Part shown: positions 1 to 7,546 of the stretch, one piece after another
How the letters are laid out: every line of letters begins with the position of its first letter
How positions within the stretch are numbered: the stretch's first letter is position 1
NCBI GenBank assembly: GCA_001799195.1
Contig: MGSU01000195.1
Span: 1 to 8,030, forward strand
DNA: 8,030 bases
Origin: Deltaproteobacteria bacterium RIFOXYA12_FULL_61_11
Lineage (GTDB): Bacteria; Bdellovibrionota_F; JAHFAK01; YA12-FULL-61-11
Direction of reading: 5' to 3'
Notes under the pieces: model-generated
Told to the model about the DNA's origin: nothing
Databases searched by the model: none
Seen by the model: the letters and a program-made list of their open reading frames with translations, nothing else
Position numbers and translations under genes: made by a program

Positions 1-455
1 TCCACGTCTCTAAGGAACTGTCTGATCGCACTGAATTTCATCGGCCCACGCCAGATCACCGCCTCGTCGCGGCTCTGCAGCAAGAAGCCTATCGACATCA
101 CCTTCAACAGGCCTGGCTCGAAGCCCACGGCCACCGGGTCGATGCTGCGTTCGTTCCCGGTGATGGTGGCACCGTGCAAACCGAGGAGCTTTGGCACGCT
201 CGGACCATGGAGATCCACGTCGAGCAGTCCGACCCGCTTTCCGGCCAGGGCTAAAGCCGTGGCGAGATTCACCGCCACCGTGCTTTTGCCCACCCCACCC
301 TTGCCCGACAAGACCATGATCTTATGGTGGATCTTGCACATCCGGGCAGCAAGGGCCTGACGTTCGCGATAGGCTTCCTCTCCCTCATCGGGACGACGTT
401 CAGCGCTCGAACAGGTTGAGTCGTGACACGTGGTGCAATTGCTCTCGTGACTCAT
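1..455 (-). CDS. Mrp/NBP35-family Fe-S carrier ATPase, N-terminal part (C-terminus outside window)
   Basis: This is the first 151 codons of a P-loop ATPase of the Mrp/NBP35 (ApbC) family, cytosolic proteins that bind and transfer [4Fe-4S] clusters. Seen: a deviant Walker A, SGKGGVGKST, at residues 50-59 with the signature lysine K51; the LLDVDLHGPSVPKLLG segment at about 77-92, typical of the family (switch I region); and IWRGPMK at about 134-140, also characteristic. The N-terminus carries C7, C10 and C15, resembling the short Cys-rich leader seen on NBP35-like members. The ATG at 455 is chosen because AAGGAG (467-462) sits 6 bp upstream. That SD overlaps the stop codon of the preceding fusion ATPase gene, and the two genes are separated by 11 bp, so this is the last visible gene of the operon. 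The conserved CxxC and any C-terminal extra domain lie beyond position 1 and cannot be assessed. In orp-type clusters the Mrp protein may carry a C-terminal ORP domain; that is unknown here. Confidence 0.93.
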   Translation of the reverse strand, partial: MSHESNCTTCHDSTCSSAERRPDEGEEAYRERQALAARMCKIHHKIMVLSGKGGVGKSTVAVNLATALALAGKRVGLLDVDLHGPSVPKLLGLHGATITGNERSIDPVAVGFEPGLLKVMSIGFLLQSRDEAVIWRGPMKFSAIRQFLRDV

Positions 456-466
456 GAGGTACTCCT

Positions 467-2296
467 TCAAATTCCATAGGTCAGCACAGCATTCCAGAGT
501 TCCCGGGTATCCTGGGCAGCAGCGCAGTCCTTCCACTCCACTACCGCCCGTCCGGCGACCTGGGCTCGGGTCATCTCTTCATCGTAGCGGATGCGTCCAA
601 GTACTGGGAAACCGAAACCGGCCATGGCGTTCTCGATCTCGGTACTGACCTCTGCATTGAGATCAGCCTTGTTGATACAGACCGCGGCGCGCACCTGGCT
701 CTGCCTTGCCAACTCGGCAACTCGCAACAGGTCGTGCAACCCCGAGAGCGTTGGTTCGGTGACCAGCAGGACCAGGGCTGCTCCCGCGATGGACGCCAAC
801 ACCGGACAACCGATGCCGGGAGAACCATCACAGAGGAGGAGTTCCCGCCCTTCCTCCAGAGCCAGAGCCCTTGCTTCCTTGCGCACCATGGATACCAGCT
901 TGCCGCTGTTTTCCTGGGCCACGCCGAGGCGCGCATGAACCAGGGGCCCATGTCTCGTGTCCGAAATGAACCATTCGCCGTTGACGGTGGGTACGAGTTC
1001 GATCGCCTTGACCGGGCAGACCGCGAGACAAACACCACAGCCCTCGCAACCGATCTTCACCACTCGATAGGTCGGGAATGCCCCGGTCGTATCGACCACG
1101 ATGGCATCGAAGCGGCAATACTCTGCGCACGAACCACAGCCAAGACAGGTCTCCTCGTCGATGACCGCGGTCTTCCCCCCCGAGAAAGGCCAACGATGGC
1201 GAACCGTCGGATCCAGCAGCAAATGGAGATCCGCTGCATCGACATCACAATCCGCCATAACAGCCCGGGCAGCCAACGCCGCGAAGGAGGCCACGAGGCT
1301 GGTCTTGCCCGTGCCCCCCTTGCCGCTCAGCACGACGAGTTCGCGTACCGACGGCAGGCGCGAAGCTTCTACGCGACTAGAGGGCAGCACAGCCAACTCG
1401 GTTTCGTCGGAAACCCCCGATTGTTCCCGGACGGATAAGCTCGGTCGGGGAGCGACCGTCAGCCCGGCTAGAACTCGACGCAACTCGAGCAAGCGTTGGT
1501 CCAAGCCCGGCACGACCTCCCGGGCAAGTTGTCCCCGGGAATACGCGCGGGCGATGAGGGGATCATTGGGCAGTTCGAGGAGTACGGGGATGCCTTCTTC
1601 TTCACAGAAATCGTAGACGGCATGATCCCCAAGGCCGGCACGATTGACGAGTACCCCCAGCGGTTTTCCCAACTCGCGCACCATGGCCACGGCCAGGCGC
1701 AGATCGTTCAAACCGAACGGCGTGGGTTCGGTGACCAGGAGGACCACCTCTGACTGCTCGACCGCGGCTATCACCGGGCACGAGGTCCCGGGTGGTGCAT
1801 CGAGGATCAGGGTCCGATCCTTGGGGGCGGCCGCGAGGACCCCACGGATGACCGGCGGAGACAAGGCCTCTCCTATGGTCAAACGCCCCTGGAGAAAGGT
1901 GATCCTCCCCGCTTGTCCCTGCTCGATCACCCCGATGGGCCGAGGCACCTCGCGGATGGCCCGTTCGGGACAGACCAAGGTGCAACCGCCACAGCCATGA
2001 CAAAGCTTGGGAAACGTCAGGATATGCCCAGGCAAGGCCAAGATGGCCGAGAAACTACAAGCCTGCCCGCACGCCCCACAATAGGTGCAAGCCGCGGCAT
2101 CGACCTCGGGAACCGGAATGGTAACGACTTGACATAGATCGAGTTCCGGTCTCAGGAAGAGATGCCCATTGGGCTCCTCGACATCGCAATCGATATAGGC
2201 AACCGCCTCTCCTGAGGCCGCCAGGGCCGCAGCAAGGTTCGTTGCTACGGTGGTCTTGCCCGTGCCGCCCTTGCCGCTGGCTATAGCGATACGCAT
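467..2296 (-). CDS. Fused tandem MinD/ParA-type ATPase with two ferredoxin inserts (four predicted [4Fe-4S] clusters)
   Basis: A single 609-residue frame contains two complete copies of the 'P-loop ATPase with inserted (4Fe-4S) ferredoxin domain' family (COG1149-like), which is normally encoded by two adjacent genes of about 280-300 codons. Half 1: deviant Walker A SGKGGTGKTT at 7-16; ferredoxin cysteines C70/C73/C76/C80 and C99/C102/C105/C109 (each Cx2Cx2Cx3C); LDAPPGTSCPV at about 165-175. Half 2: Walker A SGKGGTGKTS at 324-333; cysteines C384/C387/C390/C394 and C417/C420/C423/C427; CDGSPGIGCPV at about 489-499. A polar Ser/Arg/Glu-rich linker (about 280-317) joins them. The start ATG lies 2 bp after the upstream NifX-like stop, with GGAGG at 2307-2303 inside that gene's end, so translational coupling is likely. 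Family role (known): ATP-dependent, redox-active partners in metal-cluster assembly. The Mo/Cu or Fe-S client here is inferred from the neighbours. All motifs are intact, with no sign of a frameshift or decay. Confidence 0.95.
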   Translation of the reverse strand: MRIAIASGKGGTGKTTVATNLAAALAASGEAVAYIDCDVEEPNGHLFLRPELDLCQVVTIPVPEVDAAACTYCGACGQACSFSAILALPGHILTFPKLCHGCGGCTLVCPERAIREVPRPIGVIEQGQAGRITFLQGRLTIGEALSPPVIRGVLAAAPKDRTLILDAPPGTSCPVIAAVEQSEVVLLVTEPTPFGLNDLRLAVAMVRELGKPLGVLVNRAGLGDHAVYDFCEEEGIPVLLELPNDPLIARAYSRGQLAREVVPGLDQRLLELRRVLAGLTVAPRPSLSVREQSGVSDETELAVLPSSRVEASRLPSVRELVVLSGKGGTGKTSLVASFAALAARAVMADCDVDAADLHLLLDPTVRHRWPFSGGKTAVIDEETCLGCGSCAEYCRFDAIVVDTTGAFPTYRVVKIGCEGCGVCLAVCPVKAIELVPTVNGEWFISDTRHGPLVHARLGVAQENSGKLVSMVRKEARALALEEGRELLLCDGSPGIGCPVLASIAGAALVLLVTEPTLSGLHDLLRVAELARQSQVRAAVCINKADLNAEVSTEIENAMAGFGFPVLGRIRYDEEMTRAQVAGRAVVEWKDCAAAQDTRELWNAVLTYGI

Positions 2297-2298
2297 GG

Positions 2299-2673
2299 TC
2301 AGCCTCCGCTCCGCTGCCCCGCATGACTGACAACATTAGGCGAGCTCGACGGCCGAAGCTTTCCGTCGTTGTACTGTTGCACGACTTCGGCGACCGTGCC
2401 GCCGCAACCGACGATCACTTCGACTCCGGCGGCGCTGAGGGTCTGATGAGCATTGGGACCGCAATTGCCGGTCAGGACGACCTTCGCGCCATGGGTCACC
2501 ACCAACTTGGCAGCTTGAATACCTGCTCCTCCCCCGAGGGAGCTGTTGGTGTTATCCACGGCTTCGAAACTCAAATCGTGGCTGTCGATGAACAGGAAAT
2601 AGGCACATCTGCCAAAGCGAGGATCTACTGGACTGTCCAGCTTCGGTCCCACGGACGATACTGCGAGTTTCAT
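2299..2673 (-). CDS. NifX/NifB-type iron-molybdenum cofactor-binding domain protein (ORP-like), 124 aa
   Basis: A small cytosolic protein of the dinitrogenase Fe-Mo cofactor biosynthesis fold (NifX / NifB C-terminal / MTH1175-like), single domain. Diagnostic stretches seen: the N-terminal MKLAVSSVGPKLDSPVDPRFGR, split here as MKLAVSSVGP and the DPRFGRCAYF motif (about 17-26); the glycine-rich GGGAGIQAAKLVVTHGAK (about 47-64); and TGNCGPNAHQTLSAAGVEV (about 68-86) with the GCGGTV loop at about 89-94. Cysteines are C23, C71 and C90. An open frame continues upstream to 2961, but the ATG at 2673 is chosen because AAGGAGG (2686-2680) lies 6 bp before it and homology begins there. The gene lies 40 bp after the first NifX-like gene and 2 bp before the fusion ATPase. 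This is the best candidate in the window for an orange-protein-like metal-cluster carrier. That role is inference from fold and context; no nif structural genes are visible. Confidence 0.9.
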   Translation of the reverse strand: MKLAVSSVGPKLDSPVDPRFGRCAYFLFIDSHDLSFEAVDNTNSSLGGGAGIQAAKLVVTHGAKVVLTGNCGPNAHQTLSAAGVEVIVGCGGTVAEVVQQYNDGKLRPSSSPNVVSHAGQRSGG

Positions 2674-2713
2674 GGTCACCCTCCTTATGGGTTCGTTCAG
2701 GTAACTATCTTCT

Positions 2714-3148
2714 TCACGATGTTGACTTACTCTTCGCAGGTGTGCCCCCCACCGCGCGCCCCATGCGAAACCGAGCCCCTCGACCCGAATTCCTCCTGCA
2801 ACCACACTGTCGGCGCCAACACCCGGGCATCGAGAATGCTGGGGCTGGCAACTGCTCGTGGAGCAGGGCGTGCAATACCTGTTCGAGCTCCCCGGCCACG
2901 AACGCGATGACCTGCACCTCTTTGTTCCGCAACTCCTGGAGGAGAGGTTCAGAAATCGCACCGCACACCAGGGTTGTAATGCCGAGTTCGATCAACCGCT
3001 CAATGGTCCGCTGGGGATTGGAGCCTTCGAAGGAGAGAAGGCTCCTCCCGCGCTCGACCTGTTCCTCGAGTTCGAGCACCAGCACCTCTCGGCACACATC
3101 GAAGACCGGGGAGATCCGGCCGTCCCAGACCGTCAGCGCGACTTTCAT
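2714..3148 (-). CDS. NifX/NifB-type domain protein with Cys/Arg-rich C-terminal tail, 144 aa
   Basis: First gene of the putative orp-like operon. Residues 1-100 match the NifX/NifB-associated domain: MKVALTVWDGRISPVFDVC at the start (family pattern 'I.....GRISPVFD'), an acidic amphipathic segment, then a TIERLIELGITTLVCGAIS core (about 48-66) and a further strand, VQVIAFVAGE. The tail from about 106 is different: MPGC at 107-110 followed by C115 and C117 and many arginines, ending in a polar stretch. Many relatives end in an MPGC plus Arg/Gly tail, so this looks native and not frameshifted. The ATG at 3148 has AAGGAGG at 3165-3159, spaced 10 bp. The gene is preceded by a 196-bp intergenic region downstream of the sigma-54 activator. 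A likely role is as an accessory metal-cluster-binding partner of the ATPases downstream; the specific ligand is unknown. Confidence 0.88.
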   Translation of the reverse strand: MKVALTVWDGRISPVFDVCREVLVLELEEQVERGRSLLSFEGSNPQRTIERLIELGITTLVCGAISEPLLQELRNKEVQVIAFVAGELEQVLHALLHEQLPAPAFSMPGCWRRQCGCRRNSGRGARFRMGRAVGGTPAKSKSTS

Positions 3149-3177
3149 GCGGAAGGCACCTCCTTGCGCAGCGCTTC

Positions 3178-3193
3178 AGCAGGATCCAGGCCG
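3178..3193 (-). promoter_or_regulatory. Weak candidate sigma-54 (-24/-12) promoter
   Basis: The minus strand reads CGGCCTGGATCCTGCT, compared with the consensus TGGCACG-N4-TTGCT. The invariant GG and GC are present at the correct spacing, and 8 of 12 defined bases match. Predicted initiation near 3167 would leave a leader of only about 19 nt, though one that still includes the SD. It was the best GG-N10-GC match found by hand in this gap, but such matches are common in GC-rich DNA. Confidence 0.2.
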
Positions 3194-3297
3194 CCCGAGA
3201 AGGACGCCTGCTTGCATGTGTATCTCTATGTTTTTGTTTGTTACTGTGCGTTTTCCAGCCCCACGGGCGAGCAGTCTACAGTCGCGTTGTCGCGCCT

Positions 3298-3314
3298 CTA
3301 CTGTTCAATAGTAG
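3298..3314. promoter_or_regulatory. 17-bp near-perfect dyad, candidate activator (UAS) binding site
   Basis: The plus strand reads CTACTGTTCAATAGTAG. The arms CTACT/AGTAG and TT/AA are symmetric about the central C, with one asymmetric pair. It lies about 155 bp upstream of the first NifX-like ATG and just after the activator gene, in the position and size range usual for enhancer sites of NtrC-type activators. It is not followed by a T-run on the minus strand, which argues against an intrinsic terminator. With flanking GCG/CGC it could also form an imperfect RNA hairpin at the activator's 3' end, so a role in RNA processing is the alternative. Confidence 0.4.
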
Positions 3315-3344
3315 CGCAGCAATGCAACTCTATGCCGTTCCAGC

Positions 3345-4748
<1,404 letters not shown>

Positions 4749-4755
4749 TCCACGG

Positions 4756-4760
4756 CTCCC
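4756..4760 (-). promoter_or_regulatory. Shine-Dalgarno deciding the start of the sigma-54 activator
   Basis: GGGAG on the minus strand lies 7 bp upstream of ATG 4748. The alternative GTG at 4775 has only CTTGG immediately upstream, so the 467-residue form is preferred over the 476-residue one. Confidence 0.6.
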
Positions 4761-4838
4761 ACGGCAAGAGTACACCCAAGGTTCGAGGGTCAGAGACTCC
4801 GAGCATCCGTGCTGATCCTGCCGACGCCTACGTCCTGA

Positions 4839-4934: not shown

Positions 4935-6185
4935 TCAGAAGGGATAGCTGACGATCGAATCCAGAGGATCGACACCATGTTCCTGCACTACCACGGGGCT
5001 TTCCGGTTCAGACTGGCATTCTTGGCCTGCGACGATCGGCCGGAGGTGGGCCAGGTCGGCTCCGCCGAGGAAACGGTCGAGCAACTCGACCGCGCAGCGA
5101 TGTTTCTCGCGCAAGAGCGCATGACCGGAGTGGGCATTCTCCCACAAGAGAACCTCGGGAAGGAGCCTAGCCATACGGCGCATGGCCTGCACCGGGGTGA
5201 CGGGGTCGTACTTGCCGGCCCACACCATGGTCGGTGCTCGAACCTGTGAGAGGGTGCTCGAGAAATCCATCGGCTTCCGGAACCCCTTGAAAGGTCCGCA
5301 CTCACGCTGGAAAAAGGTCAAATAGAACTGGTGTTCGGCAACCTGGCCGGGATGATCATAGATCTCTTCGCAGAGAATGCGCCGAGGCATGTCGACCGCC
5401 GGAATGACAGGTATGCGGTAGGGTGCCAGGATGGTCAAGAACTGCTGTTCTCCCTCTGCCCCGGCTAAACGAGCGAGTAATTCGGGGATCTGCAGAGTGC
5501 GGCCATGGAAACCATAGGTCATGGGGAAAAGGGCCTCCAGGACTGCTGCAGCATGGCGCGGATAGAGCTGTCTGATGCGATCGAAGTGTTCTTTTGCGAC
5601 GCTATTCTCATCCACGTACAAGCGGAGGTACTGCTTTCGAGCGACCGCGACATCGGTGCTGGAAAGCATGGCAGAGTCCAAGACGAGACCGGCGAGATGC
5701 CGGTGATACTTCACAGCATAGGCCTGACCAAGGAAGGTTCCATAGGAGACTCCATAGAGGAACCATTTCCCCGACGGGCCGAGCAGGTCTCGACGGATCG
5801 CGTCGAGGTCGTCGGCCGCACGATCCATCGAAAACTCCTGAGGCACATGCCCGGCAAGACGCGGGGTCAGTTCGGTGGTGCAACCGAGGCCGCGGTGATC
5901 GAAACTGAGGACGTTGGCGCGATGGACGAAGTCCTCGTTGGCCACGGCATCGAGGATGCTGTGATCTCCACCCGGTCCGCCGTTGACCAAGACAAGTGTG
6001 GGCTTCGCGCTGTCAAAGGGTTGGAGCAGCTTATAATAGACCCGGAACCAGCGGTCCATGCTCGGTGGGTCTTGTTGGTCGTAAGGGGCCACCACATACC
6101 GGTTGAGATCATCGGGAGGGGGGCACACGGCCGCTCCTGCCAAGATCGGATTCACCAGACACACGAGGAGGAGCAGAGTGCGCAT
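4935..6185 (-). CDS. Secreted alpha/beta hydrolase, S33 prolyl/tripeptidyl aminopeptidase type
   Basis: A 416-residue exported serine hydrolase. An N-terminal signal peptide (residues 1 to about 19, MRTLLLL then a hydrophobic core ending LAGAA) precedes the mature protein; there is no lipobox. Catalytic motifs in order: oxyanion-hole NGGPG at 68-72 (the HGGPG motif of prolyl iminopeptidases); SFDHRGLG at 94-101 (the DxRGxG motif); nucleophile elbow GVSYG with Ser147; acid GKYDPVTP with Asp327; and His355 (or His352) in NAHSGHALL. The length and the YDPVTP segment fit the TAP-like branch of family S33, which releases N-terminal residues, often proline, from peptides. ATG 6185 is preferred over the upstream in-frame ATG at 6239, because GAGG (6194-6191) precedes it by 5 bp and it starts directly with the signal peptide. 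Substrate preference is not predictable. A link with the neighbouring metal-cluster operon is not evident; it is separated by an independent promoter. Confidence 0.88.
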   Translation of the reverse strand: MRTLLLLVCLVNPILAGAAVCPPPDDLNRYVVAPYDQQDPPSMDRWFRVYYKLLQPFDSAKPTLVLVNGGPGGDHSILDAVANEDFVHRANVLSFDHRGLGCTTELTPRLAGHVPQEFSMDRAADDLDAIRRDLLGPSGKWFLYGVSYGTFLGQAYAVKYHRHLAGLVLDSAMLSSTDVAVARKQYLRLYVDENSVAKEHFDRIRQLYPRHAAAVLEALFPMTYGFHGRTLQIPELLARLAGAEGEQQFLTILAPYRIPVIPAVDMPRRILCEEIYDHPGQVAEHQFYLTFFQRECGPFKGFRKPMDFSSTLSQVRAPTMVWAGKYDPVTPVQAMRRMARLLPEVLLWENAHSGHALLREKHRCAVELLDRFLGGADLAHLRPIVAGQECQSEPESPVVVQEHGVDPLDSIVSYPF

Positions 6186-6370
6186 GCGGACCTCGGGTGG
6201 ATCACCTGAGCGAGTTCCTAGCACATCCCTCGAGGACATGCAATCAGCATTGCCCTAGTGGTTGAGAACCCTCAGATAATGAACTGAAATATTCAGAACT
6301 CGCGCGGTAGGAGGTGAGCAGGGGACATCGGACGAACCGTGAAGCTCAGTACTGGATAGATCGCGGAAAA
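6186..6370. other. Intergenic gap between lipoprotein and hydrolase genes
   Basis: This 185-bp non-coding stretch should contain the hydrolase promoter. It has a locally AT-rich part (about 6275-6298) with a short palindrome, CTGAA-ATA-TTCAG (6284-6296). No clear -35/-10 pair, terminator or RNA gene was recognised. The first 54 bp are an in-frame extension of the hydrolase frame, without an SD at its upstream ATG. Confidence 0.5.
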
Positions 6371-7546
6371 TCAGCGCACGAGGGCTGCGGTATACCCCAA
6401 GTATTCCGTATACCATTGGTCGTTGTCGCAGTAGATTGCCCTCTCGATGTTGACGATCAATTCGGCCACGGTGAGGTCGCTACCGGAAACCGTCTGGCAG
6501 GGCGATACCGCGTGGTTGAGGACACTCAGCCAAAGCACCAGGAGGTCCTGGATGAGCATATCCCGATCGCTGAGCCTTGAGGCGTCCCAGGACAAGAGGC
6601 AGCGCACCCGCTCGACCGTGTCGAGGATGACTTTCTCGGAGAAGATCTTCGAAAAATACTGGATGGTATCGATCGCCACGGCCATCTCCTCTTCGTCCTC
6701 GAGGCGCTGGAGCAAAGAGGCCGCACCTGGTAGACACAGGACCTCCCCTTCGGAGGCTTCCCGCACGGTAACCTTCGCGGTGGCAACCGTGGTGGAGAGG
6801 AATTCACCTCGCAACTCGGCGTCAAGGGCGATCACCTCCCCGTCGCAGAGCAAGGGGTTGACCCGCAGTTCGAGTTCGCGCTCCAGGAGGCCGTCATTGC
6901 AGATCAGCCGATCCTGCATCCAATAGATCTCGGTATCCATGTCGTCTTTGGCGAAATCCCGAACCTCATGGACCGCGGGATAGATATGGCCATCGATCGA
7001 CACGGTGGGGAGGTACACCTTCAACATGATCTCTCGGAAATTGTACCTCGTGGTATTCAAGGCCATGACGTGCTCGGTGAAGTCTTGTCCATTGAAGACC
7101 ACGGCCGGATCGACTTGATTGAAGATACAAAGTTCTTCGCCGCACACGGATTGGGCGGTCTCCAGGTTCTCGGTGCAGCACACTACCGGCTGCCAGGGAA
7201 CCGGTTCACCTTGAGGTTGGGGTTCGTTGGAAACCGGGGCATCTCCCTCTTGCTCATTCGGGTCCGGGGTATCGCTCGGCTCTTCATCTTCTTCACCATC
7301 CTCAGGCTGAGCATCGTCTGAGACCTCATCCTGGGTCGTGGACTCTTCCTCGCCCTGGCCCTCAGCATCTTCAGACGCTTCATGCTCCGCTGAGGCATCT
7401 GCCTCGTCCCCGATGAACAAGGGCTCTTCATCCTCGGCGAGTACCGAGGGGAGGGATTCTTGCTCGATCTTCGCAGTCGTCTTCTGAGCGCACCCGGTCA
7501 CGATCAATGCGAAGAACAGGATCAGGGACAGGGGCATGGTCTTCAT
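6371..7546 (-). CDS. Predicted lipoprotein with Asp/Glu-rich spacer and Cys-containing C-terminal domain, function unknown
   Basis: I do not recognise this 391-residue protein. Seen: a type II signal peptide with a hydrophobic core (about 5-16) and lipobox VTGC, lipidated cysteine C19; then a strongly acidic, Pro/Gln/Ser-containing low-complexity spacer (about 38-116) rich in Glu and Asp with very few basic residues; then a globular-looking domain from about 117 to 391. That domain has ten cysteines (C123, C124, C135, C140, C216, C234, C271, C316, C350, C373), an even number compatible with disulfides in an oxidising compartment, and several amphipathic segments. ATG 7546 is preceded by GAGAGG at 5-bp spacing. 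The protein would be tethered to a membrane, with the acidic stretch acting as a flexible spacer or cation-binding region (inference). It is probably transcribed alone from the AT-rich region upstream. No functional link to the neighbours is visible. Confidence 0.82.
   Translation of the reverse strand: MKTMPLSLILFFALIVTGCAQKTTAKIEQESLPSVLAEDEEPLFIGDEADASAEHEASEDAEGQGEEESTTQDEVSDDAQPEDGEEDEEPSDTPDPNEQEGDAPVSNEPQPQGEPVPWQPVVCCTENLETAQSVCGEELCIFNQVDPAVVFNGQDFTEHVMALNTTRYNFREIMLKVYLPTVSIDGHIYPAVHEVRDFAKDDMDTEIYWMQDRLICNDGLLERELELRVNPLLCDGEVIALDAELRGEFLSTTVATAKVTVREASEGEVLCLPGAASLLQRLEDEEEMAVAIDTIQYFSKIFSEKVILDTVERVRCLLSWDASRLSDRDMLIQDLLVLWLSVLNHAVSPCQTVSGSDLTVAELIVNIERAIYCDNDQWYTEYLGYTAALVR

Follow-up and report, generated by a model that had tools for sequence, protein, structure and literature searches.

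What should we make of two ATPases, usually the products of neighboring genes, when they turn up in a single polypeptide? The question is posed by a contig of 8,030 bases, analyzed in its entirety and called the window from here on. It belongs to a draft MAG (342 contigs, 87% complete, 4.64 Mb) whose phylum counts only two species within the genome collection. On the minus strand of the window, positions 467 to 2296 form an uninterrupted frame of 609 codons, and the product is a ferredoxin-MinD/ferredoxin-MinD ATPase with Orp3-Orp4-type halves in one chain. Our answer, to which we attach a probability of roughly 0.6, is that the gene arose when two adjacent ferredoxin-MinD ATPase genes of an orp-type operon became fused, and that its protein acts as a heterodimer within a single molecule. 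The orp system is found widely among anaerobes. In a fused chain, both the 1:1 ratio and the order of the two ATPases are fixed.

Two ATPases in one frame and the company they keep

The N half of the protein (residues 1–285; 1442 to 2296, minus strand) is orthologous to the first gene of the split pairs found elsewhere, and the C half (residues 316–609; 470 to 1351, minus strand) to the second. Between them runs a linker (residues 286–315; 1352 to 1441, minus strand) that is disordered in the AlphaFold2 model and not conserved in sequence. Pfam recognizes two CbiA/MinD and two Fer4 stretches. Each half is a MinD/Mrp-type ATPase with a two-cluster ferredoxin insert, and the halves are 32% identical to one another across 272 residues (E 2e-28). 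Both P-loops read GKGGTGKT, the first at residues 8–15 with signature lysine K9 (2252 to 2275, minus strand), the second at residues 325–332 with signature lysine K326 (1301 to 1324, minus strand). Four CxxCxxCxxxC motifs supply 16 ligand cysteines, enough for four predicted [4Fe-4S] clusters. In the N half they are C70xxC73xxC76xxxC80 (2057 to 2089) and C99xxC102xxC105xxxC109 (1970 to 2002), in the C half C384xxC387xxC390xxxC394 (1115 to 1147) and C417xxC420xxC423xxxC427 (1016 to 1048), all on the minus strand. A first-pass annotation, made from the letters alone, had described just this: two complete ATPases in one 609-residue frame, with two P-loops and 16 cysteines in four motifs.

Across 127 N and C pairs, fused and split, the lysines are retained almost without exception (K9, K326, and K331 in 100%, K14 in 99%), and every one of the four motifs, all 16 cysteines, is present in 127 of 127. 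Because the ATPase and cluster residues are intact in both, neither half is an inactive copy kept for regulation.

The neighbors are informative. In the order of transcription on the minus strand, the operon begins with a PAS, AAA (GAFTGA), and Fis-type sigma-54-dependent activator (3345 to 4775), which is OrpR-like by position. It continues with two small NifX-family proteins assigned by Pfam (PF02579), a of 144 residues (2714 to 3148) and b of 124 residues (2299 to 2673), then the fused ATPase, and finally an MrpORP-type Mrp/NBP35 ATPase. Only the first 151 residues of this last protein are present (3 to 455, minus strand), the gene being cut by the contig end; the fragment matches positions 2–110 of NF041136 and PF10609. 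Several cysteines precede its P-loop (CTTCHDSTC...MCKIHH; 455 to 345, minus strand), as would be expected of MrpORP, for which four cysteines at the N terminus are reported. The fused protein scores 74 against NF041136, far below the curated cut-off of 450, and belongs to another branch of the superfamily than MrpORP. A search for a sigma-54 (−24/−12) promoter, TGGCAC-N5-TTGC with up to two mismatches, gave 7 matches against 7.3 expected, none of them in 3149 to 3344. An alpha/beta hydrolase (PF00561, TAP-like C terminus; 4935 to 6239, minus strand) lies outside the operon; it has a hydrophobic stretch at its N terminus and is probably a peptidase destined for secretion. The window also encodes a predicted lipoprotein of 391 residues (LIVTGC; 6371 to 7546, minus strand) with a long acidic low-complexity stretch, to which no family was assigned.

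This assembly of parts is familiar from Desulfovibrio vulgaris, and it bears out the orp-type context in which the first-pass annotation had placed the gene. There, Orp3 (DVU2103) and Orp4 (DVU2104) are likewise ferredoxin-type MinD-like ATPases with two [4Fe-4S] motifs each (PMC6345978), and they belong to a cluster under sigma-54 control, by DVU2106 (PMC4641369), that also has MrpORP and a NifX-family (orange) protein. His-tagged Orp3 is reported to co-purify systematically with Orp4 and with Orp8, itself an orange-protein/NifX-family protein, and MrpORP transfers Fe-S clusters to the Orp3-Orp4-Orp8 complex in vitro (PMC6345978). What all this is for is unsettled; cell division has been proposed (PMC6345978). 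There are differences. Orp3 and Orp4 are two separate genes in D. vulgaris, whereas the window has one 609-codon frame, and the D. vulgaris orp genes form two divergent operons, whereas those of the window all point one way. Because the window operon holds the same kinds of parts, its halves are most likely Orp3- and Orp4-type subunits, a likeness to DVU2103 and DVU2104 drawn from architecture and context.

The join in the reading frame

Could the genes in truth be split, the open linker being the product of an assembly or sequencing error that erased a stop codon or altered the frame? The window is, after all, a single contig of a draft MAG. Moreover, in seven split loci (L040, L042, L043, L044, L045, L046, and L053) the two genes share a frame and are parted by one stop codon, so that a lone error would be enough to join such a pair; in L044 the stop, TGA, directly precedes the ATG of the second gene. 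Against this stands L039, a Deltaproteobacteria MAG assembled elsewhere, which has the same one-frame fusion in a protein 61–64% identical to that of the window. Throughout the linker, the bases at the three codon positions occur in proportions like those of coding DNA. The second half resumes at VRELVVLSGKGG, its usual methionine gone, as the first-pass annotation had remarked; 25 of 26 fused proteins lack the ancestral start methionine of half 2, and because of this loss the fused protein would be made as one chain. Alternative in-frame starts for half 2 (TTG301, GTG303, and GTG322) have no recognizable ribosome-binding site. Nor did the genome assembly of the window hold a separate copy of either half (one match, with all 30 candidates scored). 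Since L039 is fused too, the half-2 methionine and ribosome-binding sites are absent, and a separate copy is lacking, chance or assembly error is unlikely to lie behind the fusion, and an artefact that masks genes truly split seems to us very improbable indeed. The seven loci with a lone stop have a second lesson: because nothing more than that in-frame stop parts the genes, one substitution can create a fusion.

The extent of the linker was also foreseen. It had been put at 38 residues, close enough to the roughly 36 that separate the last helix of half 1 (residues 265–281) from the first strand of half 2 (residues 318–324) in the AlphaFold2 model, and its position at about 1345 to 1460 was correct, the strand, left unnamed at the time, being minus.

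Fused and split forms among genomes

These ATPases usually come as two neighboring genes, N before C. The median gap between the genes is 0 nt, and 71 of 107 split pairs overlap or lie within 20 nt of one another. The order activator, NifX a, NifX b, N, C, Mrp is seen again, with split genes, in a number of unrelated MAGs (e.g., L065 and L066). L061 and L126 have the same order of genes, again with split ATPases, except that there the other strand encodes the activator. Departures from adjacency were seen by eye in translations: L170 has a NifU/IscU-like ORF between its split ATPase genes (about 5494 to 6054) and L174 a methyltransferase-like ORF (2473 to 3021).

How often, then, are the two genes one? 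In a broad survey of 386 genomes, 121 (the window's own included) had a homologue at E <= 1e-60, and a locus was counted as fused only if a single match covered both halves without a stop. Fourteen of the 121 qualified, or 13 of 120 (~11%, about one in nine) once the window's genome is set aside. Open frames in G028 (579 residues), G002 (630), and G362 (860) had looked like fusions; their DNA shows split genes. Targeted surveys of three phyla gave eight fused loci in seven genomes in the first (where 33 of 82 genomes had homologues), fusions in four of five genomes in the second, and fusions in two of seven in the third, both of which also carry split copies. The fusion is a real variant of a known system, recurrent and not unique to the window. 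The first-pass annotation had raised the prospect that a survey would find the fused form both common and already described. Recurrent it proved to be, and we found no published description of the fusion in the open-licence literature, including that on DVU2103/2104 and OrpR. To our knowledge ours is the first count of its share of homologue-bearing genomes, of its origins (probably two), and of the genomes that hold both forms.

Those origins were explored with FastTree on 117–127 concatenated N and C pairs. The fused proteins fell into two clades, one consisting of the window protein and L039, the other of 15 and then, as sampling grew, 22 others. With 127 rows, the window pair is nested among split genes (0.80/0.93), and its identity to those split relatives is 58% vs 46–50% to the other fused clade. 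Judged from the tree, there were probably at least two fusions. The alternative is that a single ancient event gave rise to every fused form, the split relatives near the window having come apart again or the tree having misplaced them. It draws some comfort from an AU test with 57 rows, in which a single fused clade is not rejected (p 0.424, delta lnL 2.3), from another subset in which the window pair neighbors the other fused clade, parted from it by a lone split genome, and from linkers of similar length in the two clades (25–37 residues). The sequences of those linkers, however, are without clear similarity, and an AU test on 44 rows with broader sampling of fused and split forms, which included the long branch L186, does reject the single clade (p 0.024, delta lnL 11.4). 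Add to this the nesting among split genes and the greater closeness of the window protein to split relatives than to other fused proteins, and a single ancient fusion becomes somewhat unlikely. Two or more fusions is the history we prefer.

Most other fused proteins, then, make up a second and older clade, of 22 loci (e.g., L121/G045, L166/G182, L122/G036, and L050 from WOR-3). Like the window protein they run N, linker, C, with 25–37 residues of linker and all ligand cysteines; unlike it, they form a clade of their own, only 46–50% identical to the window protein. Fused and split copies occur together in three genomes, G036 (L122, L123, and L124), G188 (L168 and L169), and G307 (L183 and L184), and because of this coexistence the older clade may represent a paralogue that serves a separate function. 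Some of its loci are found away from orp-like operons, in the neighborhood of UbiE-type methyltransferases (L161, 390 to 7655; L163, 3067 to 3759; L166, 1160 to 4859), and these surroundings suggest a different type of cluster. One of the three loci has a methyltransferase-NifX domain fusion, and a second encodes an ARMT1-like phosphatase along with an Mrp that stands alone. G210 has two fused copies (L186 and L187) on a long branch, with 1.99 changes per column for L186.

How the halves may work together

That these ATPases work as a pair had been proposed for the window from the outset, and the split genes bear it out: they keep the N-C order and are mostly adjacent, and Orp3 and Orp4 are reported to co-purify (PMC6345978). 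The claim that a covalent fusion is direct evidence for a 1:1 machine goes too far. It is Rosetta-stone evidence, and for the split form biochemistry had already backed the pairing of the two ATPases.

For the fused chain itself we turned to modeling. AlphaFold2 was given a chain-only alignment, A2, of only 23 rows, deepened by translating six split pairs across the one stop codon that parts them in frame (an alignment of 110 rows mixing halves and fused chains was dropped; in it, C halves fell on N halves). The model of the whole chain has pLDDT 88.5 and pTM 0.87, and pLDDT drops below 50 solely at residues 288–312, in the linker. Because the pTM of the whole chain is so high despite a disordered linker, the model suggests that the halves are packed in one defined arrangement. 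Taken singly, each half matches MinD, ApbC, NifH, or BchL (Z 22–25). The arsenite-pump ATPase ArsA, two homologous deviant-Walker halves fused, is a precedent for an intramolecular pair, and it is a full-length structural match to the fused protein, with two ATPase halves in one chain. It differs in having no ferredoxin inserts and another substrate, with an overall TM of about 0.4. Because the full-length superposition by Foldseek is poor (TM 0.38–0.41, rmsd 15–17 Å), an ArsA-like closed arrangement, the MinD-like sandwich in which the two P-loops would lie face to face within one chain, is not demonstrated.

A more modest role for the linker would be that of a tether, one that makes the fused chain a constitutive scaffold and holds two ATPases at a set stoichiometry while the working dimers, N with N and C with C, form between two chains. 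Many MinD-family proteins are homodimers, and homotypic dimers could form here, since P-loop and signature lysine are complete in either half; the linker, too, is long, disordered, and non-conserved. Yet split genomes keep the two genes paired and ordered, the two fused clades hold to a similar linker length of 25–37 residues, and a pTM of 0.87 for a single chain suggests packing within it. We therefore regard the tether as an unlikely account; of the ways to read the model, we favor the intra-chain heterodimer.

How might such a heterodimer function? The two halves would pack together in one chain, with the signature lysines K9 and K326 each completing the ATP site of the other half; because both halves keep their signature and catalytic lysines and their ligand cysteines, two composite ATP sites are possible. 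ATP binding and hydrolysis would switch the paired halves between states, and the switching would be coupled to the ferredoxin inserts, with their four [4Fe-4S] clusters, for electron transfer or the handling of a metal-sulfide cofactor. The neighboring MrpORP would load the clusters of the fused protein, the NifX-like partners, as relatives of orange protein, would serve as cofactor carrier or client, and the sigma-54 activator would turn the operon on. Of this scheme, we infer the dimerization within one molecule, the ATP coupling, and the role toward the NifX-like proteins. MrpORP and Nbp35-Cfd1, the latter a known heteromeric pair (PMC6345978), are likewise ATPases with a deviant Walker A motif and a link to Fe-S clusters. 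They have a CxxC motif for a bridging cluster, whereas the fused protein has ferredoxin inserts and a cysteine after switch II.

That cysteine deserves a closer look. It lies seven residues past the switch II aspartate in both halves, and it is common to fused and split proteins: D166-APPGTS-C173 in the N half (1778 to 1801, minus strand; 126 of 127 pairs) and D490-GSPGIG-C497 in the C half (806 to 829, minus strand; 127 of 127 pairs). NifH has the same spacing of seven in D125-C132, where C132 is a cluster ligand at the dimer interface. For C97, the other cluster ligand of NifH, we saw no evident counterpart in the halves. A fifth metal site between the halves, at C173 and C497, is possible on the strength of this spacing. 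One could go further and imagine a NifH-like machine in a single polypeptide, an ATP-gated reductase or cofactor-insertion device in which C173 and C497 hold the fifth metal site at the intra-chain interface and hydrolysis gates the passage of electrons or clusters out of the four ferredoxin clusters and onto a metal-sulfide cofactor that a NifX-like (orange-protein-like) partner carries; we consider this extension a long shot. The fused chain lends itself to experiment, in that mutants of a single half (K9 or K326, C173 or C497) are feasible in one protein without subunit exchange.
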